DNA of 28,688 nt from a virus. Both the position numbers and the translations under genes were made by a program. The notes under the pieces were generated by a model. That model saw only the letters and a list, made by a program, of their open reading frames with translations, searched no databases and was not told where the DNA came from. Shown piece after piece: positions 13,151 to 28,688 of the stretch. Positions within the stretch are counted from its first letter, which is position 1. Each line of letters starts with the position of its first letter. Where the stretch lies: IMG/VR virus record IMGVR_UViG_3300047359_000091, positions 1-28,688 of that record, one strand, 5' to 3'.

Positions 13151-13892
13151 CACTTATCACCAAGTTAAAACCATAATCACTGTCTGGAGTCACATCGATC
13201 GGGTCCGGAGTCACCGTCAATAGTTCCGCAAACTCATTTTCAGCAGTATTTAGGTCGATATTAACTTCGCGAATAACTGGACCAGACTGCACAGGACCAT
13301 AGAAGTTCATTTTCATATCAAACGATAGAGTGTAGATAATTGTTCGTCTCTGCTCAATCGCACCTTCGAAGTCATCCGACAAATTGACACCGACAAGCGT
13401 TACAGGAACGTCTTCTTTGATATCAGGTTCGTCTGTAAATGGTTTGACTGTCAACGTGTATTGCGGCGCGAAGTATGGCACGACTTGTTCTACGACTTGT
13501 AAGGCGTCATCCTGAGATTTTGCATACACGTGAAGTTCAAAACTAATCGTATACGGTACGCCGACATATCTGCGAAATTGAGAGTCGTCGTTAGATGTGA
13601 CGTAACTATTGATCTTAGGAAGTTGTCGAGTCGGGTCATATACGATTGAGACGATCTCAAACGACATCCTAGGAAGTTTAAGTGCGACCCTACGTTCTGC
13701 TTCTTCTCCGTTCGTCATCTCCTCCAGACGTTCTATGAACGACCTAGCGGGTGCATATGACAGAGGCACCTTCACTTGAGATAATACTTTACCGCTTGAA
13801 GCAGTGCGTAGTATATTGATATTGTCAAACATAGAACCAAACAGTGCAACGCAAGTGCGCACACGTTTGTGATAGAAGTGTCCGCCCATCAT
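13134..13892 (-). CDS. 15: Tail completion / sheath terminator protein gp15
   Basis: This is the T4-type gp15 of 252 residues, which caps the tail and connects it to the neck. The N-terminus MMGGHFYHKRVRTCVALFGS followed by MFDNINILR parallels the T4 start MFGYFYNSSFRRYATLMGDL. Other shared segments are VKVPLSYAPARSFIERLEEM, LPRMSFEIVSIVYDPTRQLP, YTISFELHVYAKSQDDALQV and VEQVVPYFAPQYTLTVKPF. Two adjacent ATGs exist (13892, 13889). The first overlaps the gene 14 stop as ATGA, and either could serve. It is followed by terminase gene 16. Confidence 0.95.
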   Translation of the reverse strand: MMGGHFYHKRVRTCVALFGSMFDNINILRTASSGKVLSQVKVPLSYAPARSFIERLEEMTNGEEAERRVALKLPRMSFEIVSIVYDPTRQLPKINSYVTSNDDSQFRRYVGVPYTISFELHVYAKSQDDALQVVEQVVPYFAPQYTLTVKPFTDEPDIKEDVPVTLVGVNLSDDFEGAIEQRRTIIYTLSFDMKMNFYGPVQSGPVIREVNIDLNTAENEFAELLTVTPDPIDVTPDSDYGFNLVISDERQS

Positions 13893-14773
13893 GGTATTAG
13901 ATCTCCAAACGGATTTGACTCTGTGAAGTCTAGGAAGTCTTCTGCGAAGTCATCAAAGGTGCGTTTCTGTGCCAAACGATCAATCTCGTTGATTCCCTCC
14001 TCTTCAGAGATAGGTATCAATGATGCGTTCTCGCCAATAACAGGTCTGTCTGTTGCCCACTCGTGATACTTGCCGTCTGTGCCGCCTGTGTGTGCAATCT
14101 TGAGGACACGTGTGTCGTGATTCCAAGAAGTGACTTCACCCTCAAGGCGGAAGTCATCAAACTCTTGATAAACATCTTCACCGACAAGATAATAGATTTC
14201 GCGACCCATGCCTTCGTCTGGCATTTTGAGTTCGTATTGGAACGCGCCCTCGACTTCAACGTTATCGATCCCAGGAATGCCGGTATCGAAGTCTTCGTCT
14301 GAGAACTCGAATAACTCGCATTGCATACGGAACAGAGGTAGTTGAGACAGTTGATAGAAAGGAGACTCGGTCTCTACTTTCATAACTTGGAATAATGATT
14401 CGGATAACGGCAAGTATATAACGTCGCCTTCACGTGGACGGAATTGTGCGTCTGAAAGACGATCACCAATCAAGTGTTTCCATCTACGACGTGCGATAAC
14501 AAACGTTGCCTGATCTCGTAATTCGATACCGAACTTAGTGAAAAGATCCCCCTCGCCTTCGAAACCTTCTGCGTTCTCAATATACACTTCTACTTTATAT
14601 GCGTCTGAGAACTGAGACTGGATGCTGTCAAGGAAGATATCCTCTGACGCCACAATCTCGCGAGGCAGATAGTAGACGTCCTGACCATACATCTGAATTG
14701 ACTCGATGATCAAATCTTCATATAAGTCTTGTTCTGGACGATACTTCTGTGAAAAATATGGGTTAGTAGCCAT
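13889..14773 (-). CDS. 14: Neck protein gp14
   Basis: This is the T4-type gp14 neck protein, which joins the packaged head to the tail together with gp13. It has 294 residues, against 256 in T4. The start MATNPYFSQKYRPEQDLYED and the following LIIESIQMYGQDVYYLPREI match the conserved N-terminal segment of the family. Further on are GIELRDQATFVIARRRW and REGDVIYLPLSESLFQVMKV. The C-terminal third is acidic and less conserved, ending DFTESNPFGDLIP. It starts three bases after the gene 13 stop and overlaps gene 15 by four bases, so the neck genes are one translational unit. Confidence 0.95.
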   Translation of the reverse strand: MATNPYFSQKYRPEQDLYEDLIIESIQMYGQDVYYLPREIVASEDIFLDSIQSQFSDAYKVEVYIENAEGFEGEGDLFTKFGIELRDQATFVIARRRWKHLIGDRLSDAQFRPREGDVIYLPLSESLFQVMKVETESPFYQLSQLPLFRMQCELFEFSDEDFDTGIPGIDNVEVEGAFQYELKMPDEGMGREIYYLVGEDVYQEFDDFRLEGEVTSWNHDTRVLKIAHTGGTDGKYHEWATDRPVIGENASLIPISEEEGINEIDRLAQKRTFDDFAEDFLDFTESNPFGDLIP

Positions 14774-14776
14774 AAC

Positions 14777-15547
14777 TTACCCCATGAAGAAAATTGGACC
14801 TTCGTCCTCTTCTTCTCTAAATTTAGTCATAATACGTTCAATGTCTTGTAGTGCATCTTCATAGATCTGACGAGCGTTGACTGTAGTGCCGCCTGGTAAT
14901 ACCATACCGTCAAACTTGATCAGGTTGAGACCCCACTGCCTCTTGATCAATGCAGTAGCGTATTCTTTTACAAACTTGTGGTTCCATAGTGAGTTGTATT
15001 CGTTCACTGAGTCGTCTGGGTTTCGAATGCCGTAAACCTCAAAGACGACATAATCACCTTCTTTCATATTGTGTTTTGAGATATGTAGATTGACACGGTT
15101 GTATTGTCTGTCGAATGTAATCTGTGGCGTGCCCACTAGTTTCATATCAAGTAACGAAAGGTGTTGTTGCATAGATTCGTAGTGTGCAAGGTCCGCCATA
15201 TAACCACCACCACTTGTAAAGTCTGTGACGGTAAACTTGACTAGTTGCCATGCATCACTAAACCAACCCGACTGAGTAGCGGTCCATGACATTGGTAACA
15301 TTCGCACAACCGCAGATAGATCTAAGTCATCCGCGAAATCAATATACTTGTTTTCAATATCTTGCGTAGTTAGTTGATGCTTAAGGTAGTAACGGCGAGA
15401 ACCGTCTGGGTGATGTTCACGAAACCACTGTAACGCTTCATCTATGCGGTCATCCAATTGCTCTTCGTCAATGTTTATCTCAACGACAGGGTGACCTAAC
15501 GCCCTCAAGCAATAATCTATCAATTCATCTCGGTCAGTAGAATACAT
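14777..15547 (-). CDS. 13: Neck protein gp13
   Basis: This is the T4-type gp13 neck protein, which forms a ring between portal and gp14. Conserved segments are LIDYCLRALGHPVVEINIDE (about 9-28), LDDRIDEALQWFREHHPDGS, LPMSWTATQSGWF, FEVYGIRNPDDSVNEYNSLW and YATALIKRQWGLNLIKFDGM followed by VLPGGTTVNARQIYEDALQD. I use the ATG at 15547 (256 residues). A TTG four codons upstream is also open but less likely. It is shorter than T4 gp13 (309). It is the first gene behind two late promoter boxes and opens the 13-to-17 transcript. Confidence 0.95.
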   Translation of the reverse strand: MYSTDRDELIDYCLRALGHPVVEINIDEEQLDDRIDEALQWFREHHPDGSRRYYLKHQLTTQDIENKYIDFADDLDLSAVVRMLPMSWTATQSGWFSDAWQLVKFTVTDFTSGGGYMADLAHYESMQQHLSLLDMKLVGTPQITFDRQYNRVNLHISKHNMKEGDYVVFEVYGIRNPDDSVNEYNSLWNHKFVKEYATALIKRQWGLNLIKFDGMVLPGGTTVNARQIYEDALQDIERIMTKFREEEDEGPIFFMG

Positions 15548-15572
15548 GTTAGTGTCCAATAAAGAGTATTTC

Positions 15573-17865: not shown

Positions 17866-20800
17866 TTACGCATCAACGTAAGTTACTGAAACAGAAACAA
17901 CAGCACCAGCAGATTCAGCAGTGTACAATAGTTCAACACTTGAACCGTTGACTTGTACGTCTGTATCACCTAGTAGTGAAGATCCTGTGAATACGATGCC
18001 GTATTCTACGATTGATGCAGATGTTCCGTCGTGGACAACTAGACATTCGCGAGTCTCAAACTCACCACCATTCTCCACAGTAACGATGTACTTAGCAGAA
18101 CGATATGTTTCTTTGTTGAATGCCGAGACAACTGTTGCAGATGTTCCTGCAATGATGTCGTTACCCTGCTCGAAGACCTTGATGTTATCAGCAAGAGTCT
18201 CAAGACCAACAGACTTAGGATCTAGTACACCAACTGAGTTAGTGGACTGAGCAATCACAACCGCTTGCGTGCCAACTGGGATCGCACTGTTAAATGTGAT
18301 CTGCTGGTTAGCTGCATCGATAGAGTAGTGAGTACCTGGATCCTGAATAACACCACCAACGAATACAATCGCGTTTTGATCTTGCGTGTAGAAGTTCAAT
18401 GCGAATGTAGTCTGCGCACCGTCACCAGCCATTGTCTGACGCTGTGCGTTGTTGAATGCCAACTGAGTTGGATCCTGTAGAGTCATTCCGTCTAGAGTGT
18501 TGTTTACACGTAGAACGTAACCGTTCTTACCGTCATACTCTGTATCGGTTACATCTGCAAGTTCTAGTAGAGTCTTAGCAGTGTCGATTGAGATGACACC
18601 AGTTGAAGGATCATAAGATGCCTTACCTGCGCCGTCAACGTCTGTCAAAGATACTGAAGAACGTGCACGTGCTTCTGTAAAGTATAGGTTAGAACCTTCT
18701 GCGACATCGTCAGTAGAGAACTGTGAGATGTGTTGTGCAGCAAGACCTGCGTCCAACTGACCTTTGTTGACTGCATCAGCAGCGTCTGTACCATTTGCAA
18801 CACCAGAAACTTTGTTTCCGCCCATTGCTAGGTCGCCAGTCATTGAATCGCCAGACTTTGATACTTTACCGTCGATCTGAGTTTGTAGACCAGCGTCAGC
18901 AGCAGCGAACTCTGCACGGATTAGACCGTCCTGAGTTGCACGGATAGTTGCTTCGTCTACAAGACCTTGTGCGTTAGTTGCGATATCAGTTTGGTTCTGA
19001 GCAACTAGTGCAGATAGATCACCATCAGCACCTTGGAATGCCGCAACGATCTCTGTTAGAGAATCTAGTGCTGCACTATCAGTGTTTGAAGTGATGAAGT
19101 CGATCTGACTTTGTAGTGATGTCTCAACACCTTGCGCACGAGTTGATTCGTCTGAGATTGAAACCGCGTTCGCAGCAATCAATACGCCATTAGCAACTTC
19201 TGCCGCAGTAGCACGAGCAACTTCAGCTGCTAGTGAATCACGGATATCAGAATCTTCTGCCGTACGAGTTGCAACTTCTGCGTCAATCTGTGACTGCAAG
19301 TTGTTGATACCTGAGTTACGAGTATTGTCAACTGCCTTAATAGCAGCGTCCAACTTCGCGTCTGCGTCTGCTAGAGAAGTAGATGCATTCAGGTAGTTAG
19401 TTGATGTTGGAGTGACGTAAGTACCGTCAGTTGCAAGACCTGCACCCAACTGTGTAGCAGACATCTCTGTTTCTAGTACAGTAGTACGAGAATCTAGAGC
19501 GTTGTCAGCAGCAGCACGAGTATTTGCTTCTGTGGTGATCTTACCGTCTAGGACGTCATCTGCGTTTTCACGTAGAGTTGCTTCGTTAGCAACGATTCCG
19601 TCCGCGTAAGTCTTAGCGGCAACTTCAGCATCATCTGCTTCGTTTTCTGCGTAAGTCTGTGCAGATGCAAGAACGACTGCGTCACGAGCAACATAGTCTG
19701 CTTGATCAACTGTACGATCAGCAGCTAGATCAATACGGATTTGACTATCAGCGGCGATACGAGCAGCAATTTCAGCAACAAGTGCGTCTGAGTCTGCGTC
19801 AGCACGTGCGACAGCAGCCGCAAGACCAGCAGTGTTTACGTCAGTCTCTGCGTGTACTTCGTTGATCGCACCGTTGACTGTTTGTGCAGTAGTGTCTAGT
19901 GCTTCAGATGAAGTTCCGATAACAGCTTCTAGTGCGTCGATATCTGCTTCGTTGACAGTTAGACGACCTGCTTGTAGACCTTGTTCTGTCTCTAGTGCAG
20001 TTGCACGAGTCTCTAGAGAAGTTGCGCGTCCTTCGACTGCATCCATCTCTGTTTCTAGGGTGGAAACGCGACCTGTGTTAGAGTCTGCTTGAGTGTGTAA
20101 CTCGTTAACAGCAGCAGTTACGTTGTTCGCAACAGTTGCTAGAGTAGAAGTACCCATCTGACTCTGTAGAGTGTCGACATGACCTTCTTCAGTAGTCATA
20201 CGACCTTCTAGTGAAGTTGCGCGACCTTCGACTGCATCCATTTCTGATTGCAGTGTATCGATCTCACCTTCAGCAGTAGTTACGCGACCTTCTAGTGAAG
20301 TTAGATCAGCAGCTTCGCCGTCTAGTTCAGCGTGTAGTTCGTTAACAGCAGCAGATAGATCAGTTGCAACAGTTGCTAGGGTAGCAGTTCCGACCTTAGT
20401 TTCTAGGTCGTCGATGTCACCTTCGTTTACAGTTGCGCGACCTTCAAGAGCGGTTGCACGTGCTTCGACGGCATCCATATCTGCTTGTAGTTCGTCAACG
20501 TTTGCTTCTTCTGTAGTTACACGATTTTCTAGCGCAGTTAGATCAGCAGCTTCGCCATCTAGTTCTGCGTGTAGTTCGTTAATCGCGTCAGAAACGTTTG
20601 TTGCGACCGTGTGTAGAAGTGCAGAACCCTGCTTAGTTTCTAGGGCAGTAGCACGACCTTCAACGCCACTCAAACGAGTGTTTTGGACGATTTGATCTGA
20701 ATCAATATCGTTTGCGCGTCCTTCAAGGACAGTAGCGCGAGATTCAACATCTGTTGCACGTACTTCTAGTGCAACGATATCGGTTTCAGCAGTAGTTAGT

Positions 20801-23781
20801 CGACCTGAGTTATTAGTAATAACTGCTTGTAGGTCACTGTCTGCGGTTTCGAATGCAGCAACGATTTCTTGTAGTGTGTCCAGAGTTTCTGGTGATGTAC
20901 CGATGATTGCATCAACACGTCCAGTAACTGTATCTACGTCTGTACGTAGACCACCTTCAACACCAGTAGCACGAACAATTTCTGCGTCCAACTGGTTCTG
21001 TAGGTCTGTAACGTCACCTGCTTGTAGGTTTTGTAGAGCAAGGATATCAGAGTCGTGTGCAGTAACCTGCGCCTGTACACTATCTACGTCAGTACGTAGA
21101 CCAGCTTCGATACCAGTTGCACGTGCAACCTCTGCATCGATGTTAGACTGTAGGACGCCTTCAGCGGCAGTCGCACGGTTAACTTCAGCAGTGATCTGTG
21201 CTTGGTTATCGTTGTGATCAGATGCCTGTAGGATCTGAAGTGCAAGGATGTCTGAATCGTTCGCAGTGATTTGTGCTTGGTTCGCATCAACATCGGTACG
21301 TAGACCAGCTTCAACACCTGTCGCACGAGTAGTTTCAGCCGCAATTGCGTCTGCGTTAACTACTTCAGCAGCAGTTGCACGAATAACTTCCGCGTCTAAC
21401 TGAGCTTGTAGATCATCAACATCGTTACCTACTAAGTTTTGTAGAGCAGCGATATCTGAATCGTTTGCAGTAATTTGAGCTTGATTCGAATCAACGTCTG
21501 AACGAAGACCTGCCTCAACACCTGAAGCACGTACAACTTCTGCAAGAATCGATGCTTGTAGATCGGAATCTGCTTCGTTGAAGTCTGCTTCTACATCATC
21601 CAAACGAGTGCTTAGTGCAGATTCTGCAGCCTGAGCACGTGCTACTTCAACAGTGATTCGACCACGTTCTGTAGAGATGTCTGAGATGTTAGTGTTGATC
21701 TGAGTCTGTAGAGAAGATTCAACGCCTTGTGCGCGATTCTGCTCTGTAACAATTGCCGCAGCGTTAGTTGCTTCTACGCCAGTAGCGCGAGTAACTTCTG
21801 CGGTGATCTGTGCTTGTAGATCATCAACTTCGATTGTTGTATTAGCGTTTAGTGCGTCGACCTGCGCTTGTAGGTCTGAGTCACCAGATGCACGAGCAAC
21901 TTCTTCTGCGCGTAGATCGATTTCGTTTTGAGCAGCTAGTGCCTCAACGTCATCCATCTCACCTTCTAGTACTGTTGTACGTAGAGATAGTGCGGTGTCA
22001 GCAGCGATACGAGCAGCTTCTTCTGCAGATACGACCGTGTTTGCGTGTGCAATAGATTGAGACTTAGCAGTTGCGATACGGTCAGTGATTGTGTTGCCAC
22101 CAGTACCGTTTACAGTTGCGTCACCGATTAGGGCAGCATCTTGCGCATCAGCGTGTGCGATTGCAACAGCTTGGTGTGCGTCTGCTTCTTGATCAGTGTA
22201 TGCTTTTGCTTCAGCAAGAACGTCGTCTTTCTCAACCTGAATGTCAACATTGATTTGGTCAATCTGTGACTGTAGACCAGTGTCAGCAGTTGCACGACTT
22301 GACGCTTCTGTATCAATATTGCTTTGTAGTGTTGCTTCTGCCGCTTCTGCGCGATTCTTTTCTACTGAAATTGCAGTAGTGTTAGATGCGATAAGAGCAG
22401 ACATATCTGAATCAGATGCCTGATATGCACTGACGATTTCTGTCAATGAATCTAGAGCAGCTGGATCAGTGTTAGAGGTGATGAAGTCAACCTGTGATTG
22501 TAGGTTTGCTTCAGCAGCAGTTGCACGAACTTCTTCTGCATCGATGTTACCTTGTAGGACACCTTCTTCAGCAGTAGCACGAGCGATTTCTGCATCAACG
22601 CGAGCGTTTAGATCAGAGTCACCTGCGATACGTGCAGCATTCTCGATTGCAACTGAGTTACTTGATTCAGTGATTGCTTCTGCTTTCGCAGTTGCGATAC
22701 GATCAGTTACAGTGTTATTTGCTGTACCGTCAACAGTTGCATCGCCAATCATTAGTGCGTCTTGTGCTTCAGCATGCGCTTTAGCAGCAGCTTCTGCCGC
22801 AACAATATCTGCACCTAGGTCAGTACGAACTTGGTTATCTGCAACAGCACGTGCAGCGATTTCGTCTTGAATAGACTGTGCGTTTGCCGCTTCTGCGCCA
22901 GTAGCACGAGTAACTTCATCGGTGATTCGTATGGTGTTTGCGGCTTCAGCAGCAGTTGCACGAGAGATTTCAGCAGCAAGACCTGATTCTAGATCGTCTA
23001 CATTACCTTCTTCTGTAGTCAAACGAGCAGATAATGCGTTGTCCGCCGCGATACGTGCAGTTTCTTCTGCGCCAATTAGACCAGCAAGTGAAGTTTCTGC
23101 TGATATTGCGCGTGAGATCTCTGTAGTAACGCGATCATCAATTGCTTGTTCTGCTTGAGTTGCGCGAGTAACTTCTGCAGTGATTGCCGAAGCGTTTGCA
23201 ATGATAGAAGCAGACAGTACGTCATCCGCGTCTTCGAACGCTGCGATGATTTCTGCGAATGAATCTAGTGCATCTGAATCAGTGTTGTTTAGTACTAGAT
23301 CGATACGAGAAGACAACGCCGCGTCTGCTGATTGATATGCAGATTCGATTGCGTTTTCGCGTAGGACAGCACGTGTATTCTCTGCGTCGATGTTAGATTG
23401 TAGTACAACATCAGCAGCGAGACGAGCACTTGCTTCTGCGTCGATGTTAGACTGTAGTAGTGATTCTGCGGCGAGTGCGCGATTAGACTCTACTAGTACG
23501 TCAGCGTCAATTTGTGCTGCAACATCTGCGTTTGCACGAGATGATGTGTAGTAAAGGTTACTTCCTTCTGCTAGATCGTCCGTTGAGAACGAAGAGAAGA
23601 ACGCATCTGCACCAATCTTTTTCAGTGAGTCAGTACCTACGTCATAAAGTAGGGTGAAACACTGAGCTGGGTCTACCATACCCGTTAGAGTTGATTGTCC
23701 CTGAACCGCACTTTCGTCAAGTTTGGTATTGATTACCGCCTTGTCCGCTAATGCTGGGGATTTAATCTGCCTAAATGCCAT
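17866..23781 (-). CDS. Giant coiled-coil tail fibre protein, 1971 residues
   Basis: A single uninterrupted frame encodes 1971 residues. Residues 1-100 (MAFRQIKSPALADKAVINTK...) contain FSTDDLAEGSNLYYTSSRA. Residues of about 100-1640 are heptad-like coiled coil built from units such as EVTRATAAEGVLQSNIDAE and DAVEGRATSLEGRMTTEEG. Four LDS/T-x3-EI(I/V)-(A/S)A(F/Y) modules, two GDATV-x-GT...TDRIATAK modules and three NELHAELDGEAADL-like blocks recur. Residues 1639-1971 are globular: SGDSMTGDLAMGGNKVSG, FSTDDVAEGSNLYFTEARA, then an AIVFVGGVIQDPGTHY beta module and a final beta-rich domain. This looks like a trimeric proximal or whole long tail fibre. At about 0.15 nm per residue the coiled coil alone would span roughly 230 nm (inference). 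AGGAG precedes the ATG. Confidence 0.82.
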   Translation of the reverse strand: MAFRQIKSPALADKAVINTKLDESAVQGQSTLTGMVDPAQCFTLLYDVGTDSLKKIGADAFFSSFSTDDLAEGSNLYYTSSRANADVAAQIDADVLVESNRALAAESLLQSNIDAEASARLAADVVLQSNIDAENTRAVLRENAIESAYQSADAALSSRIDLVLNNTDSDALDSFAEIIAAFEDADDVLSASIIANASAITAEVTRATQAEQAIDDRVTTEISRAISAETSLAGLIGAEETARIAADNALSARLTTEEGNVDDLESGLAAEISRATAAEAANTIRITDEVTRATGAEAANAQSIQDEIAARAVADNQVRTDLGADIVAAEAAAKAHAEAQDALMIGDATVDGTANNTVTDRIATAKAEAITESSNSVAIENAARIAGDSDLNARVDAEIARATAEEGVLQGNIDAEEVRATAAEANLQSQVDFITSNTDPAALDSLTEIVSAYQASDSDMSALIASNTTAISVEKNRAEAAEATLQSNIDTEASSRATADTGLQSQIDQINVDIQVEKDDVLAEAKAYTDQEADAHQAVAIAHADAQDAALIGDATVNGTGGNTITDRIATAKSQSIAHANTVVSAEEAARIAADTALSLRTTVLEGEMDDVEALAAQNEIDLRAEEVARASGDSDLQAQVDALNANTTIEVDDLQAQITAEVTRATGVEATNAAAIVTEQNRAQGVESSLQTQINTNISDISTERGRITVEVARAQAAESALSTRLDDVEADFNEADSDLQASILAEVVRASGVEAGLRSDVDSNQAQITANDSDIAALQNLVGNDVDDLQAQLDAEVIRATAAEVVNADAIAAETTRATGVEAGLRTDVDANQAQITANDSDILALQILQASDHNDNQAQITAEVNRATAAEGVLQSNIDAEVARATGIEAGLRTDVDSVQAQVTAHDSDILALQNLQAGDVTDLQNQLDAEIVRATGVEGGLRTDVDTVTGRVDAIIGTSPETLDTLQEIVAAFETADSDLQAVITNNSGRLTTAETDIVALEVRATDVESRATVLEGRANDIDSDQIVQNTRLSGVEGRATALETKQGSALLHTVATNVSDAINELHAELDGEAADLTALENRVTTEEANVDELQADMDAVEARATALEGRATVNEGDIDDLETKVGTATLATVATDLSAAVNELHAELDGEAADLTSLEGRVTTAEGEIDTLQSEMDAVEGRATSLEGRMTTEEGHVDTLQSQMGTSTLATVANNVTAAVNELHTQADSNTGRVSTLETEMDAVEGRATSLETRATALETEQGLQAGRLTVNEADIDALEAVIGTSSEALDTTAQTVNGAINEVHAETDVNTAGLAAAVARADADSDALVAEIAARIAADSQIRIDLAADRTVDQADYVARDAVVLASAQTYAENEADDAEVAAKTYADGIVANEATLRENADDVLDGKITTEANTRAAADNALDSRTTVLETEMSATQLGAGLATDGTYVTPTSTNYLNASTSLADADAKLDAAIKAVDNTRNSGINNLQSQIDAEVATRTAEDSDIRDSLAAEVARATAAEVANGVLIAANAVSISDESTRAQGVETSLQSQIDFITSNTDSAALDSLTEIVAAFQGADGDLSALVAQNQTDIATNAQGLVDEATIRATQDGLIRAEFAAADAGLQTQIDGKVSKSGDSMTGDLAMGGNKVSGVANGTDAADAVNKGQLDAGLAAQHISQFSTDDVAEGSNLYFTEARARSSVSLTDVDGAGKASYDPSTGVISIDTAKTLLELADVTDTEYDGKNGYVLRVNNTLDGMTLQDPTQLAFNNAQRQTMAGDGAQTTFALNFYTQDQNAIVFVGGVIQDPGTHYSIDAANQQITFNSAIPVGTQAVVIAQSTNSVGVLDPKSVGLETLADNIKVFEQGNDIIAGTSATVVSAFNKETYRSAKYIVTVENGGEFETRECLVVHDGTSASIVEYGIVFTGSSLLGDTDVQVNGSSVELLYTAESAGAVVSVSVTYVDA

Positions 23782-23843: not shown

Positions 23844-24203
23844 CTAACGAAATTTAATGTAGATGTCCGTTCCTTGCGGAGGGATCTCAAAAAACTGTAT
23901 AGTATTACCGATGGTTTCATAGACTTCTTCAGGATGCTGAAGAACATCATTCACCCACACATCAATTAAGTCATCACGAACTGGGGTACCATTCAGAGTA
24001 AAGAGTGCTGTATCTCCTGGAGCGATAAATGCTTGTGCTTCAGGAATAATAGTATCTTTATTAGTTGATGAAGAGGTGCCTTCGATAAGATCAAATATCT
24101 GGGTTTCCTGACCTGGAGTTGCAGATACTTGATCCTGCTTTTGTTTGGCCAAGTTGAAAAGACTTTCGGCAAGTACCCTGTTGAAGGACTTATTATTGAT
24201 CAT
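23844..24203 (-). CDS. Small fibre-associated structural protein, 119 residues
   Basis: The N-terminal third (MINNKSFNRVLAESLFNLAK plus QKQDQV) is helical. Residues of about 55-119 are beta-rich. IDVWVNDVLQHPEEVYETIG then NTIQF (80-104) resembles a beta module also present in the 292-residue protein and in the C-terminal part of the giant fibre. No catalytic motif is visible. It is the first gene after the late promoter at 24240-24247 and precedes the giant fibre gene, so a virion or fibre-attachment role is the best inference. The exact function is unknown. Confidence 0.7.
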   Translation of the reverse strand: MINNKSFNRVLAESLFNLAKQKQDQVSATPGQETQIFDLIEGTSSSTNKDTIIPEAQAFIAPGDTALFTLNGTPVRDDLIDVWVNDVLQHPEEVYETIGNTIQFFEIPPQGTDIYIKFR

Positions 24204-24280: not shown

Positions 24281-25159
24281 TTACTGCCTGAACTGTAATA
24301 GTTCTTGCAATAACTCCGTAACTTCTTGTAGGTCACTATCTAGATTATTGATTCTAGTATGTAATGCATCTACTTCAATTTGTGTAGCGACACTTTGTCC
24401 ATTCAGTGTATAGTTACCAAGAAGCTGAACTCCCGCGTCGTCCATAATAAGTCTGTCATCATTCTGGTGCTGTATCTTAAACTGACTATCATTAAACCCT
24501 AAGTGCTTAATAATAGTATCAGTACCATTATGATAAAAACGAGTTTCTTCGTTGGTGCCTACGATAAAGGCAAAGTGATCATCTATGATGAGGTCGTTTC
24601 CAAAAGAAACGCCAGTTGAATTGTAGGCGGCAACTTGTACAACTTGTTCTGCGTCTACAATGTGTGTTAGGGAGATAGTACTCCCATCATTCGCAACGTA
24701 GTCAATTCCTTGATGGAGTAAGACACCGTTGAGATATACTTGAATTCTTGATGGACTGTTCGGGTCTGGGTCATACTGTAGTACGTTCCCAGCGTCGTCA
24801 GATCCCGTTATAACCTCTAATGTTCCGTCAGAGGTATAAATGTATGCGTTAAATGTAGTTGTCGCAGAGAGACTCTCATCTCCTACAGCGCCAATCTCTA
24901 CAATCGTTTGAATACCGCCGTCATACTCTCGCTTGATATAGAGTTTACCGTCTTGAGTATTTATACCAATCTCGCCCAGTTTTAACTCTTCGATACTGGG
25001 AATATCACCAAGACCGTCAAACGTCTTGATATTCGCACCGATGTTCTGTACGACATTACTGATAGGTCTACCGACAGTGACGCGCTTGACTTTGGTGCCA
25101 GAACCAAAACCGCTAATAGAGGATACACCTGTGACTCCACCAATTCTACGTATAGGCAT
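24281..25159 (-). CDS. Virion appendage protein, 292 residues
   Basis: The N-terminus is Gly/Ser-rich (MPIRRIGGVTGVSSISGFGS). Next comes a segment typical of phage fibre connectors (LKLGEIGINTQDGKLYIKRE, about 59-78), then an IQVYLNGVLLHQGIDYVAND module (about 139-158) shared with two neighbouring genes. A fibre-like DDRLIMDDAGVQLLGNYTLN stretch follows, and the end is a coiled coil (HTRINNLDSDLQEVTELLQE). No enzyme motif is seen. It follows the BppU-like gene by four bases, with GAGG before the ATG, so the two are co-transcribed. A baseplate or fibre-network role is inferred from domains and place. Confidence 0.7.
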   Translation of the reverse strand: MPIRRIGGVTGVSSISGFGSGTKVKRVTVGRPISNVVQNIGANIKTFDGLGDIPSIEELKLGEIGINTQDGKLYIKREYDGGIQTIVEIGAVGDESLSATTTFNAYIYTSDGTLEVITGSDDAGNVLQYDPDPNSPSRIQVYLNGVLLHQGIDYVANDGSTISLTHIVDAEQVVQVAAYNSTGVSFGNDLIIDDHFAFIVGTNEETRFYHNGTDTIIKHLGFNDSQFKIQHQNDDRLIMDDAGVQLLGNYTLNGQSVATQIEVDALHTRINNLDSDLQEVTELLQELLQFRQ

Positions 25160-25163
25160 GTCG

Positions 25164-25514
25164 TTACCTCGTGACAGAAGGGTTGACTTTTATCTTACCT
25201 TCTAGTATTCTTTCTATGATAGTGTGTCCGTCTTCATCAACGAAACTAATCTCAACATCATAGACATATCTACCACGAGTGGATAGAGTGTCGGTTTGTA
25301 AATTAGTAAGGGATATTGTAACGATACCCTCTAAAGCAGGGGTGGGTATTACAGCAGTGAAGTCAATCGCCTCTGCACTCCTGTAAGTTTTCTTCATTTT
25401 AGCAGCGGCAGAGTAACCAGTAAGATCTTTCTTTGACCCGTCAGGGTTCACTAACTCTATCTGTAGAGCTAGGTCTGCCCCTTGATCAATTGTGAAATCT
25501 TCGTAAGTTGCCAT
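25164..25514 (-). CDS. BppU N-terminal-like small virion protein
   Basis: The 116-residue beta-sandwich-type protein has the pattern DFTIDQGADLALQIELVNPD (about 6-25), DLTGYSAAAKMKKTY, VTISLTNLQTDTLSTRGRYV followed by YDVEI, and the C-terminal RILEGKIKVNPSVTR. This pattern recurs in small structural proteins of many marine podo- and myoviruses. It resembles the N-terminal domain of lactococcal phage BppU, which anchors receptor-binding proteins to the baseplate. I take ATG 25514; a TTG three codons upstream is open but unlikely. It is the first gene behind the late promoter at 25551-25558. Family resemblance is from recall. Confidence 0.72.
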   Translation of the reverse strand: MATYEDFTIDQGADLALQIELVNPDGSKKDLTGYSAAAKMKKTYRSAEAIDFTAVIPTPALEGIVTISLTNLQTDTLSTRGRYVYDVEISFVDEDGHTIIERILEGKIKVNPSVTR

Positions 25515-25526
25515 TCTGCTCAAACC

Positions 25527-25714: not shown

Positions 25715-26290
25715 TTAGTTATACGGACCAAAGTAAGCAGCTTTACAAGTCCACTTACCTACTTCGTCTTGACAACGAATAACTTCTTTAGTCTCTGGGT
25801 GAACATACTCAAAGTATCCATCTCCACCTTCAGAGTAAGAGAAGATTAGGTTATATCCTGGCGCATTAGCGTTGTTGTGCCATGAGATGAATCCTCCTGG
25901 AGGATAAATCGCACACAATGCATTGTGCTTAGTAGATAGGAAATTCATCATACGAGCGTTTAGATCGCCTAGCTGGTGCGTTAAGTCTCTCTTGAAGATA
26001 GGGTCTGCGCCCTCAGAAAAGATTTTGTGGTTCTTATCTGCAGTCTTCAGATTATAACCTACCATCTCATCTGGAAACCCTTCGTGCCTTTTTCCTTGAG
26101 CAACAATTTCATCTTTATAACCATGACCAACGTAGTAAGGACGTTGACGCATAGCTTGAGCAGATGTCAAATGGCAGTTTTTTTCAAAGCCCTGCAATGT
26201 ATGCAATTTTGCATATTCGTTTAAAATCTCAATCAGTTCTGGGTTATTAACCGGAACATGCTTAAGATATTGGTCATTTACCTGTGTCAT
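25715..26290 (-). CDS. 2OG-Fe(II) oxygenase-like protein, truncated by nonsense codon
   Basis: The 191-residue frame is a paralogue of the oxygenase-like gene at 1568-2218. It shares EGFP (about 70), IYPPGGFISWHNNANAPGYN (128-147, candidate ligand His138 with Asn140 in the usual Asp place), FSYSEGGDGYFEYVHPETKE and CKAAYFGPYN. It stops there at TAA, before the part that should carry the second metal His and the 2-oxoglutarate Arg. That part continues in the same frame downstream. Unless the stop is read through or is a sequence error, the product lacks half of the active site. The ATG overlaps the glycosyltransferase stop (ATGA), with AAGGAT upstream. Its neighbours suggest a role in modifying a virion protein or glycan, which is speculative. 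Confidence 0.7.
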   Translation of the reverse strand: MTQVNDQYLKHVPVNNPELIEILNEYAKLHTLQGFEKNCHLTSAQAMRQRPYYVGHGYKDEIVAQGKRHEGFPDEMVGYNLKTADKNHKIFSEGADPIFKRDLTHQLGDLNARMMNFLSTKHNALCAIYPPGGFISWHNNANAPGYNLIFSYSEGGDGYFEYVHPETKEVIRCQDEVGKWTCKAAYFGPYN

Positions 26291-27024
26291 AAGATTGGTG
26301 TATCCTTATTTAAACCCGCAGAGAAGTGACGGATAATCACTGGTCCTGTCTCAGGTTTTGTGATCGCCCAGTTAAGAGCGTTATAATAGTTCCATCTCAA
26401 GTCGTCATCAAAGATACCAACTTTGAGATCCTTATATTTTTCTTCTTTCTCAGTTAACCACCAGAGTGAGAACTGATCCCAAGATTTGAGACTGTCCGCA
26501 TACCCATCTGGCCACCAAGTGTCATTCATCTGTCTGAACGTTAAGTCCCACCAATCATCCATGAACTCACGCACAATCGGTTTGGACATATCATATAAAC
26601 ATACTGCACCGCATAGTGTAAACTTTGATTTACCTTCTGGTGTATCAAAGTCACGTTCTGCATATATGTAGTCACGATCATCTGTCAAGGCAGTAAAGAC
26701 CACATCATGGTCCTTCATTTCATCCCATACTTTGACGATGTCTTCATGCTCTACTTCCATATCAGCATCGATATACATTGTTAGGTCATACGGCGATTTC
26801 GCCATACCCCATAACTTAGCGCGGTAGTGATCGTCACATAAGAGAATATCGTCTGCGACATCTCGACCACGGTCATCAAGGAATCGTTCCTCAGTCACCA
26901 AACAAATCTTACACTCTTCTTCAGGTTCATAGTAGTCCCGAAGAGACTCTGCAAGATTGATTGCGTACAAATAAAAGTTGCGTTTCTTTGACGCAACGAT
27001 AATAAACCCTTTACTCTTTTCCAT
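26287..27024 (-). CDS. GT-A type glycosyltransferase
   Basis: The 245-residue protein has a nucleotide-sugar transferase layout. The N-terminus is KGFIIVASKKRNFYLYAINL. MYIDADMEVE (about 83-92) carries a DxD metal/UDP-sugar motif (Asp86, Asp88). TLCGAVCLYDMSKPIV is a typical acceptor-side segment, WWPDGYADSLKSWDQFSLWW contains the Asp-Gln often seen in the catalytic region, and VIIRHFSAGLNKD near the end has a late His. No membrane segment is visible, so it would act in the cytoplasm. Donor and acceptor are unknown. It overlaps the upstream coiled-coil gene by 14 bases and the downstream oxygenase-like gene by four, forming one coupled cassette between fibre genes. A fibre or envelope glycan target is inferred. 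Confidence 0.8.
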   Translation of the reverse strand: MEKSKGFIIVASKKRNFYLYAINLAESLRDYYEPEEECKICLVTEERFLDDRGRDVADDILLCDDHYRAKLWGMAKSPYDLTMYIDADMEVEHEDIVKVWDEMKDHDVVFTALTDDRDYIYAERDFDTPEGKSKFTLCGAVCLYDMSKPIVREFMDDWWDLTFRQMNDTWWPDGYADSLKSWDQFSLWWLTEKEEKYKDLKVGIFDDDLRWNYYNALNWAITKPETGPVIIRHFSAGLNKDTPIL

Positions 27025-27472
27025 CAGCCTCGGCCTCTAGTTGTTCTTGCAGAATCATGATTGAGTACATATCTACTTCAATCTTTGACTTTGCCCGACG
27101 CAATTTTGCCTTTAACTTGCGGTTCTTAGAGTTCTTAATCTCTTCAACCTCAAACGCTTCTAGTTTGTAGTTGAACAGTTTTTCAAGTTTGCGTGCCTTT
27201 TGGTGCTCTTCATCACGCAGTTTTTCTTCTTCAGCTTCTGCTTTTTTGCGAACAACACGATCTTCAGTTTCCTTATCAATCGTTTCTTCACCTAGAGCAT
27301 CAACAACTTCATTAAACAGTTCGTTTTCACTGCCGTCTTTATTGTGACGGTGTAAAAACATTTGCTGTCGTGTAACACGACCCACATCATCTTCAAGTTC
27401 TAGAATACAGTTGAGTTCTTTTTTCTCTTCTGTTTCCCAGAACGCATTATCCATCCATTGCTTACGACTCAT
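27011..27472 (-). CDS. Charged coiled-coil protein of unknown function
   Basis: The 153-residue protein has a short folded N-terminus (QWMDNAFWETEEKKELNCIL and VTRQQMFLHRHNKDGSENEL). About 80 residues of highly charged helix follow (Glu, Lys, Arg), for example RKKAEAEEEKLRDEEHQKAR and KLRRAKSKIEVDMYSIMILQ. I recognise no family. It is the first gene after the terminator of the tetrapeptide-repeat gene, has GGAGAT before its ATG, and is coupled to the glycosyltransferase by overlap. A structural or assembly-helper role for the adjacent fibres is possible but not shown. Confidence 0.65.
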   Translation of the reverse strand: MSRKQWMDNAFWETEEKKELNCILELEDDVGRVTRQQMFLHRHNKDGSENELFNEVVDALGEETIDKETEDRVVRKKAEAEEEKLRDEEHQKARKLEKLFNYKLEAFEVEEIKNSKNRKLKAKLRRAKSKIEVDMYSIMILQEQLEAEADGKE

Positions 27473-27562: not shown

Positions 27563-28688
27563 TTATGCAACCCTTGCGTATAAAGTATACGACTCGACCA
27601 CATTAGTTAGTGAGTCAGAGATTGTTGCACCTACGTAGTTACCTAGGAACGACCGTGCGTAGTTTCCTACGAAGTCACGGTTATAGTTACCTTCGAATCC
27701 ACGAGTATAGTTACCTGTGAAGTCACCTACGTATGTTGATACGCGATCACGTGAGTAAGCACCTGAGTAAGCAGATGTTCTAATACGTGCGTATGCAGAT
27801 ACACGGACACGTGCGTAGTTTCCTACGAAGTCACGGGAGTAGGTACCAGTGTACTCACCTACGAAACCACGGTTGTAGTTACCAGCAAAGTCTCCGACAA
27901 AGTCACGAGCATATGCACCAGTGTACTCACCAGCAAACGTTCTTGCATAGTTACCAGTGAAGTCTCCAGCAAATTCACGTGTGTACTGACCAGAGAACGT
28001 ACGTGCGTAGTTACCTGTAAACGTCGTGTTGTAAGTACCTGCGTACTCACCTACGAATCCTCGAGCATAGTTACCTGTGTAATCGCCAGCGAAGTTACGG
28101 TTGTAAGTTCCTGAGTAAGCACCAGTGTACTCACCAACGAATCCGCGTGAGTAAGCACCTGTGTACTGACCAGAGAATCCACGCGAGTAGTTACCCACAT
28201 AGTTTCCACCAAAGTCACGCGTATAGTTGCCTACGTAGTTTCCACCAAAGTCCCCAACGAAATCACCGATGAAGTTGCCAGCGAAGTTGCGTGAGTAGTT
28301 GCCTGTAAATGTACGTGCGTAGTTGCCAGCAAAGTCACCCGCAAAGTTAGTCACACGATCACGTGTGTATGCAGAGTTACGGTTGCGGACATATGCCGAT
28401 ACACGAGTACGTGCGTAAGCAGAGTAACGAGTACGTGTTGATGTACGAGTATATTCACCAGTATAGTTACCAGCAAAGTCACCAGCAAATCCACGAGCAT
28501 AGTTACCTACAAAGTCACCAGTAAAGGTTGTTGTGTAGTTACCTACGAAGTTTCCTTCGAAGTTTGTGACGCGATCACGAGTGAAGTCGCCAACATAGTT
28601 AGTAACGCGAGTACGTGCATAAGCAGAGTAACGGTTACGGGTTGAGTCACGAGTACTATTGCGGGTGTATTCACCTACGAAGTCACCA
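27563..28688 (-). CDS. Tetrapeptide-repeat fibre-like protein (5' end outside window)
   Basis: The frame is open from the right edge to TAA at 27563-27565, giving 375 visible codons with no start inside the window that must be used. The GTG at 28354 is internal to the repeat. Apart from the last 20 residues (TISDSLTNVVESYTLYARVA) the sequence is 88 consecutive four-residue units. Position 1 is Phe/Tyr in 75 units and Arg/Ser in the rest. Position 2 is usually small or beta-branched. Position 3 is always Gly, Arg, Ser or Thr. Position 4 is most often Asn, Asp, Glu, Thr, Gly or Ala. Examples are FAGN YART FTGN and RVSA YARI. I recall similar Tyr/Arg/Ser/Thr repeats in marine phage genomes but no defined family. 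A fibrous virion surface protein is inferred from place and composition. Confidence 0.75.
   Translation of the reverse strand, partial: GDFVGEYTRNSTRDSTRNRYSAYARTRVTNYVGDFTRDRVTNFEGNFVGNYTTTFTGDFVGNYARGFAGDFAGNYTGEYTRTSTRTRYSAYARTRVSAYVRNRNSAYTRDRVTNFAGDFAGNYARTFTGNYSRNFAGNFIGDFVGDFGGNYVGNYTRDFGGNYVGNYSRGFSGQYTGAYSRGFVGEYTGAYSGTYNRNFAGDYTGNYARGFVGEYAGTYNTTFTGNYARTFSGQYTREFAGDFTGNYARTFAGEYTGAYARDFVGDFAGNYNRGFVGEYTGTYSRDFVGNYARVRVSAYARIRTSAYSGAYSRDRVSTYVGDFTGNYTRGFEGNYNRDFVGNYARSFLGNYVGATISDSLTNVVESYTLYARVA
27626..28681. repeat. 12-bp-period coding repeat, 88 units
   Basis: The tract encodes 88 tetrapeptides in unbroken register. Units differ in sequence but the 12-base period is kept throughout, with no insertion or deletion that shifts the four-residue phase. 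Confidence 0.9.

Follow-up and report, generated by a model that had tools for sequence, protein, structure and literature searches.

A strictly phased tetrapeptide-repeat protein of a T4-like virus is probably the C-terminal part of a giant tail fibre

Tail fibres determine which cells are open to virus entry, and the giant phage tail fibre is a known kind of object. The T4 long tail fibres and the T5-type L-shaped fibres, long and trimeric and served by assembly helpers, are the likeness that we propose for the protein described here, which has an LtfC-like gene nearby. For the repeat itself the structures to be compared are those of T4 gp5, in which three chains form a beta-helix from an octapeptide with Gly at position a, Asn or Asp at b and Val at g, extending over 110 Å for residues 389-575, and of T4 gp12, a narrower three-chain beta-helix with about 6 residues per turn (PMC3004832). 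Two annotated phages gave matches to the repeat protein of the window (the whole stretch of 28,688 bases analysed, a fragment of a virus record). Phage C48C1 (OQ984149, Kyanoviridae) encodes a protein of the same family, WJE88074.1, annotated as hypothetical protein, which covers 97% of the window query at 49% identity. The only other match was a structural protein of Synechococcus phage S-RIM2 (YP_007675557.1), which belongs to a T4-like tail cluster and contains runs of the tetrapeptide (V/L)-T-G-(N/D) with the same x-G-N/D step. In the openly licensed PMC literature, no paper was found on the tetrapeptide repeat, C48C1 or the C48C1 accession.

Structural genes of T4-like type are clustered on the minus strand of the window, and the frame of the repeat protein has its coding part at positions 27566-28687 (minus strand, open at the 5' side) and its stop codon at 27563-27565. 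Eighty-eight consecutive four-residue units occupy residues 3-354 of the 374 residues. Position 1 of the unit is Tyr in 42, Phe in 33, Arg in 10 and Ser in 3 units, and is thus aromatic in 75 of the 88; position 3 is Gly in 46, Arg in 30, Ser in 7 and Thr in 5. This recount agrees with the first-pass annotation in all its counts, namely 88 units in one phase followed by a 20-residue tail, Gly, Arg, Ser or Thr at position 3 of every unit, and 75 units with an aromatic residue at position 1. Among 2,000 residue shuffles the maximum was 28 in-phase units and the longest run was 7, against 89 and 88 observed; such a phase is out of the reach of chance. The protein is devoid of K, P, C, W, M and H, and all of its positive charge is due to Arg. 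In a 22-sequence alignment, the C-terminal residues Y367, T368, L369, Y370, R372 and A374 (window numbering) are unchanged throughout.

A search for related loci yielded 63 viral loci. The lengths of the complete proteins, taken from stop to stop, range from 675 aa (L060) to 3,901 aa (L040), with many at 1,500-2,000. With 95% identity over the aligned part, L022 is the nearest relative, and its protein is complete with a length of about 1,532 aa; therefore, the window shows roughly the last quarter of the protein, and the missing 5' part, whose recovery had been proposed at the outset, is supplied by this and other complete relatives. Their common architecture consists of an N-terminal domain of about 262 aa, the tetrapeptide shaft, non-repeat inserts and the C-terminus YTLYxRxA, which varies slightly among them. 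The strict phase belongs to the visible C-terminal quarter, and the complete genes of the relatives have globular inserts and irregular stretches. The longest tract, found in L023, has 143 units; register kept over such a number, and over the 88 of the window, takes repeat-protein design to an extreme, and the structure of the shaft would show how so short a unit builds a long rod. The relatives contain 123 non-repeat stretches of at least 50 aa, among which one cluster of 61 comprises the N-terminal domains and one common insert type has 35 members. The inserts of L040 match LamG (PF13385, 1e-15) and FG-GAP (PF14312, 1e-14), and the lectin-like fold of LamG would fit host-surface binding. The C48C1 protein shares with the family the N-terminal domain, the C-terminus and the downstream genes for the 150-aa protein, the glycosyltransferase and the 2OG-like protein, but it is 3,347 aa long and has several additional globular inserts.

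The N-terminal domain, defined from a 34-sequence alignment (A5), was modelled by AlphaFold2 for L022 with a pLDDT of 88.4 and a pTM of 0.83. Foldseek with this model gave no hit in either PDB or BFVD at E<=0.001; no PHROG reached E 0.01 with the domain, no PHROG or Pfam fibre model matched it, and it was not found in the S-RIM2 record. The domain is encoded in 329 stretches of viral contigs but, at the sensitivity used, in only 1 of 50,697 annotated phage records, that of C48C1. The family is thus common in marine viral contigs and nearly missing from annotated phage records and family libraries. In 37 examined loci the domain is followed by the tetrapeptide shaft wherever the downstream sequence is long and intact; the exception, L148, is a bacterial metagenome-assembled contig in which the frame stops shortly past the domain.

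The fibre gene has baseplate genes on one side and neck genes on the other (Table 1); the latter, gp13-like and gp14-like, identify its surroundings as a T4-like tail cluster. In C48C1, baseplate wedge and tail-fibre genes are located upstream of the fibre gene, and a Tfa-like gene (phrog_4912, 3.9e-18), with relatives in 98 loci, stands immediately upstream. The downstream order of 150-aa protein, glycosyltransferase, 2OG-like protein and LtfC-like protein is kept in 49 of the 53 distinct loci. Three of the four exceptions (L056, L134 and L142) look like a second tandem fibre gene located at a contig end that is cut off, and the remaining one, L147, is a divergent contig from a bacterial metagenome bin. 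L147 (JAAXIF010000028.1) is a 142-kb contig of a Sphingobacteriales bin with a divergent fibre and without the usual cassette; it might be a phage contig or a prophage, and might give a hint of the host.

Table 1. Location of the fibre gene and its neighbours in the window
Feature	Position	Strand	Basis or remark
gp13-like and gp14-like neck genes	13889..15559	-	phrog_211 head-tail adaptor 1.6e-36, phrog_460 head closure 3e-79
Small tail-fibre-like structural protein	23844..24203	-	phrog_2710 tail fibre 5e-4
Small tail-fibre-like structural protein	24281..25159	-	weak PHROG tail-fibre matches
LtfC-like tail-fibre assembly protein	25164..25523	-	phrog_3304 8e-17
2OG-oxygenase-like protein, shortened by TAA	25715..26290	-	WHxN..H..R motif only
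GT-A-like glycosyltransferase, DAD motif	26287..27024	-	motif, weak PF00535, synteny
Conserved 153-aa protein, first gene past fibre	27011..27472	-	synteny
C-terminal 374 aa of probable giant tail-fibre protein	27563..28687	-	5' end missing, contig edge
20-aa conserved C-terminus TISDSLTNVVESYTLYARVA, family motif YTLYxRxA	27566..27625	-	22-sequence alignment
Putative shaft, 88 in-phase tetrapeptide units (F/Y/R/S)-x-(G/R/S/T)-x	27626..28681	-	unit count

The 153-aa protein matched no family in Pfam, NCBIfam or PHROG searches. In the glycosyltransferase, the triplet DAD follows a nucleotide-binding-type N-terminal half and is invariant in 16 members, as the DxD of GT-A enzymes would have it; PF00535 (GT2) was matched weakly in 11 of the 16 (best E 0.0014), and a match of the gene to Pfam ExbD (0.0018) was under the cut-off and judged to be due to chance. 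All 18 aligned members of the 2OG-like family contain WHxN followed by a conserved H and R; the Fe(II)/2OG oxygenase triad H-x-D/E...H is absent from these 18, and there was no Pfam or PDB match. If the protein is an oxygenase, WHxN would be an unusual metal site. In the window, this gene ends at a TAA at 25717-25715 and the same frame runs on to a second stop at 25585-25583, while the relatives are mostly 226-255 aa; the early TAA reflects either a broken gene in the window virus or an assembly error. The PHROG matched by the LtfC-like protein (25164..25523) is annotated as 'L-shaped tail fiber protein assembly', and LtfC itself (PF23926) was matched at 4e-4, below its cut-off.

Profile libraries gave the window protein no family in Pfam, NCBIfam or PDB; a single PHROG, phrog_22039 (7e-6), without known function, matched weakly. 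This bears out the earlier statement that the protein belongs to no named family; a Pfam SCVP match (0.68) was below the cut-off and judged to be due to chance. Sequence searches of PDB with the window protein, its profile and two consensus repeats returned low-complexity look-alikes only, and the repeats matched none of the Pfam beta-helix models. In Pfam and PHROG searches, no sequence similarity of the giant fibre to gp34-gp37 or any other described fibre was detected. As far as tested, three features are undescribed: the shaft of aromatic/Gly/Arg tetrapeptides, the domain at the N-terminus and the cassette of enzymes in its fixed order.

To compare the window tract with its relatives, substitutions were counted against ten of them. 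The values were 0.35-0.70 for pS, 0.03-0.19 for pN and 0.06-0.18 for dN/dS; the frame is real and under purifying selection, and the possibility raised in the first-pass annotation that it is not translated finds no support in its conservation. By unit position, pN was 0.01-0.05 at position 1, 0.01-0.10 at position 3 and 0.08-0.39 at position 2; positions 1 and 3 thus show the least amino-acid change and position 2 the most. Such a pattern suggests an ordered protein in which every other residue is buried. Among the closest pairs, tract length is unchanged or differs by whole units, the window and L022 being one 60-residue step apart. A general rule of indels in steps of four was not upheld: lengths divisible by four made up 1000 of the 1448 pairwise gaps in alignment A1 and 120 of the 283 in full-length pairs, and one- and two-residue gaps are frequent in whole-protein alignments.

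Unit statistics were obtained from 235 distinct tracts with 8,027 units. Position 1 is Tyr or Phe in 79% and Arg in 16%, position 2 is Ala, Thr, Val, Ser or Ile in 91%, position 3 is Gly in 45%, Arg in 37%, Ser in 11% and Thr in 6%, and Asn, Thr and Asp are commonest at position 4. Phe at position 1 goes with Gly at position 3 in 89%, Asn or Asp directly follows Gly-3 in 69% of the Gly-3 units, and units with Ser-3 are preceded by an Arg-3 unit in about 96%; units of the Arg flavour combine into a word of eight residues, Y-x-R-x-R-x-S/T-x. In the relatives' shafts, 86% of the spacings between aromatic residues are divisible by 4, 3.6% are 2 mod 4 and 10% are odd, whereas the corresponding values in the globular parts are 19%, 22% and 58%.

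The location within the tail/baseplate cluster, the candidate fibre-assembly chaperone genes nearby (Tfa-like and LtfC-like) and the conserved architecture lead us to read the protein as a giant tail fibre, and no other reading accounts for context and architecture nearly as well; the same evidence lends good support to the earlier label 'virion-type protein'. The alternative that it is a surface adhesin or another non-tail protein is highly improbable, because in well-covered relatives its gene belongs to the tail cluster and has fibre-assembly genes nearby to either side. Probably, then, the window contains the C-terminal part of a giant tail fibre of a marine T4-like myovirus, with an N-terminal anchor, a shaft that is likely to be built of three beta-structured chains, and inserts that touch the host; most likely the fibre serves to reach and grip the host. 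The conserved N-terminal domain would most likely attach the fibre to the tail, and the tetrapeptide tract would form a long beta-structured shaft, most likely of three intertwined chains. From the conservation pattern, Phe/Tyr at position 1 and Gly/Arg at position 3 may face the contacts between chains, and Thr/Val/Ala at position 2 and Asn/Asp/Thr at position 4 may point outward. The lectin-like and other globular domains inserted in the shaft of some relatives probably make contact with the host surface, and the fixed C-terminus probably caps the three chains or sets their register. The Tfa-like and LtfC-like proteins would assist folding of the fibre, and the glycosyltransferase and the 2OG-oxygenase-like protein may modify its Tyr/Ser/Thr/Asn-rich shaft; with this pair fixed beside the fibre gene, fibre modification is directly testable. 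What the data show of this picture is the repeat pattern, the selection on the frame, the arrangement of the complete protein and the genes around it.

As to the fold of the shaft, our best guess by analogy is that three chains form a beta-helix like that of T4 gp5. The family repeat resembles that of gp5 in its short period and, in part, in its Gly steps: Asn or Asp comes after Gly in 69% of the Gly-3 units, with aromatic residues at position 1, where gp5 has its hydrophobic residue two before Gly, yet Gly fills position 3 in just 45% of all units and Arg does so in 37%. It differs in that the gp5 repeat is a Val octapeptide confined to residues 389-575; a period of 4 rather than 8, and an aromatic residue at position 1 where gp5 has valine, speak against a gp5-style shaft. 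The window protein did not match PF22178 (Gp5_trimer_C). The VTGN repeats of S-RIM2, which have Val/Leu for Phe/Tyr, lack the Arg flavour and form a short tract within a larger protein, matched Gp5_trimer_C at 1e-3, below its cut-off, and this weak match places tetrapeptide G-N/D repeats near the gp5 class. If its rise were like that of gp5, about 1,240 residues of shaft would by our own arithmetic span about 70 nm. Collagen-like fibres are Pro-rich with Gly at every third residue, whereas the window protein has a period of 4 and zero Pro; pentapeptide repeat proteins have a similar small-[N/D]-aromatic order but a period of 5, and no Pfam match to them was obtained. On period, the earlier view that the repeat is neither collagen nor a pentapeptide repeat holds. 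The first-pass annotation raised a new beta-solenoid or fibre fold as a possibility; a known type of trimeric beta-helix that carries a new repeat would be no less probable. That the fibre has an architecture absent from solved structures and widespread in marine viruses, with its Tyr/Ser/Thr/Asn-rich surface decorated by the glycosyltransferase and oxygenase of the cassette, is a tentative possibility which we would not put at even chances.

Structure prediction of the single chain gave no confident fold anywhere: the AlphaFold2 monomer of the 374-aa tract, with 22 aligned sequences, had a pLDDT of 27.6 and every residue below 50. This failure fits a need for partner chains, yet it proves nothing, and the model was not taken as evidence for any fold. 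It bears nevertheless on two other readings of the tract. In one of them the protein is a fibre, but each chain closes on itself as a tetrapeptide beta-solenoid, analogous to the pentapeptide-repeat fold but with a unit of four and with 12 or 16 residues to the turn. The strict phase across 88 units agrees with this, as do the weak three-unit (12-residue) autocorrelation of Gly at position 3 (0.27), a strand periodicity of about 12 residues in the low-confidence AlphaFold2 model, and the small-[N/D]-aromatic order, which resembles the pentapeptide motif less one residue; however, self-folding solenoids are usually handled well by AlphaFold2, and we consider this reading unlikely. The other takes the tract for a low-complexity chain rich in Tyr, Arg and Gly, flexible and sticky, which binds weakly at many points and forms no ordered shaft. 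The unconfident model would suit such a chain, and so would the composition of the shafts of 21 relatives, which are rich in T, R, Y, G, A, S and N with 13.2% Arg and 0.02% Lys, since an Arg-rich, Lys-poor make-up is known in condensate-forming proteins. But a four-residue phase without slip over 88 units, the strong constraint at positions 1 and 3 and the whole-unit changes in tract length argue against it, as disordered repeats seldom keep register in this way, and it is quite unlikely.

A cyanophage identity was considered from the Kyanoviridae and S-RIM2 matches and is disfavoured, because no psbA-type gene (PF00124) was found in the seven long records behind L009, L014, L035, L057, L058, L060 and L065, several of which are perhaps incomplete. 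The host is thus probably not a cyanobacterium, despite the filing of C48C1 under Kyanoviridae.

Further repetitive or duplicated genes were observed. Positions 17866-23781 of the window encode a coiled-coil-like repetitive structural protein of 1,971 aa with many 'EVTRATAAE'-type repeats, for which no family was above the cut-off. A divergent second 2OG-like copy lies at 1568-2218, downstream of the capsid genes, and is 36% identical to that of L002. In L034, L056, L059, L134 and L142, a tandem pair of tetrapeptide-fibre genes is apparent.
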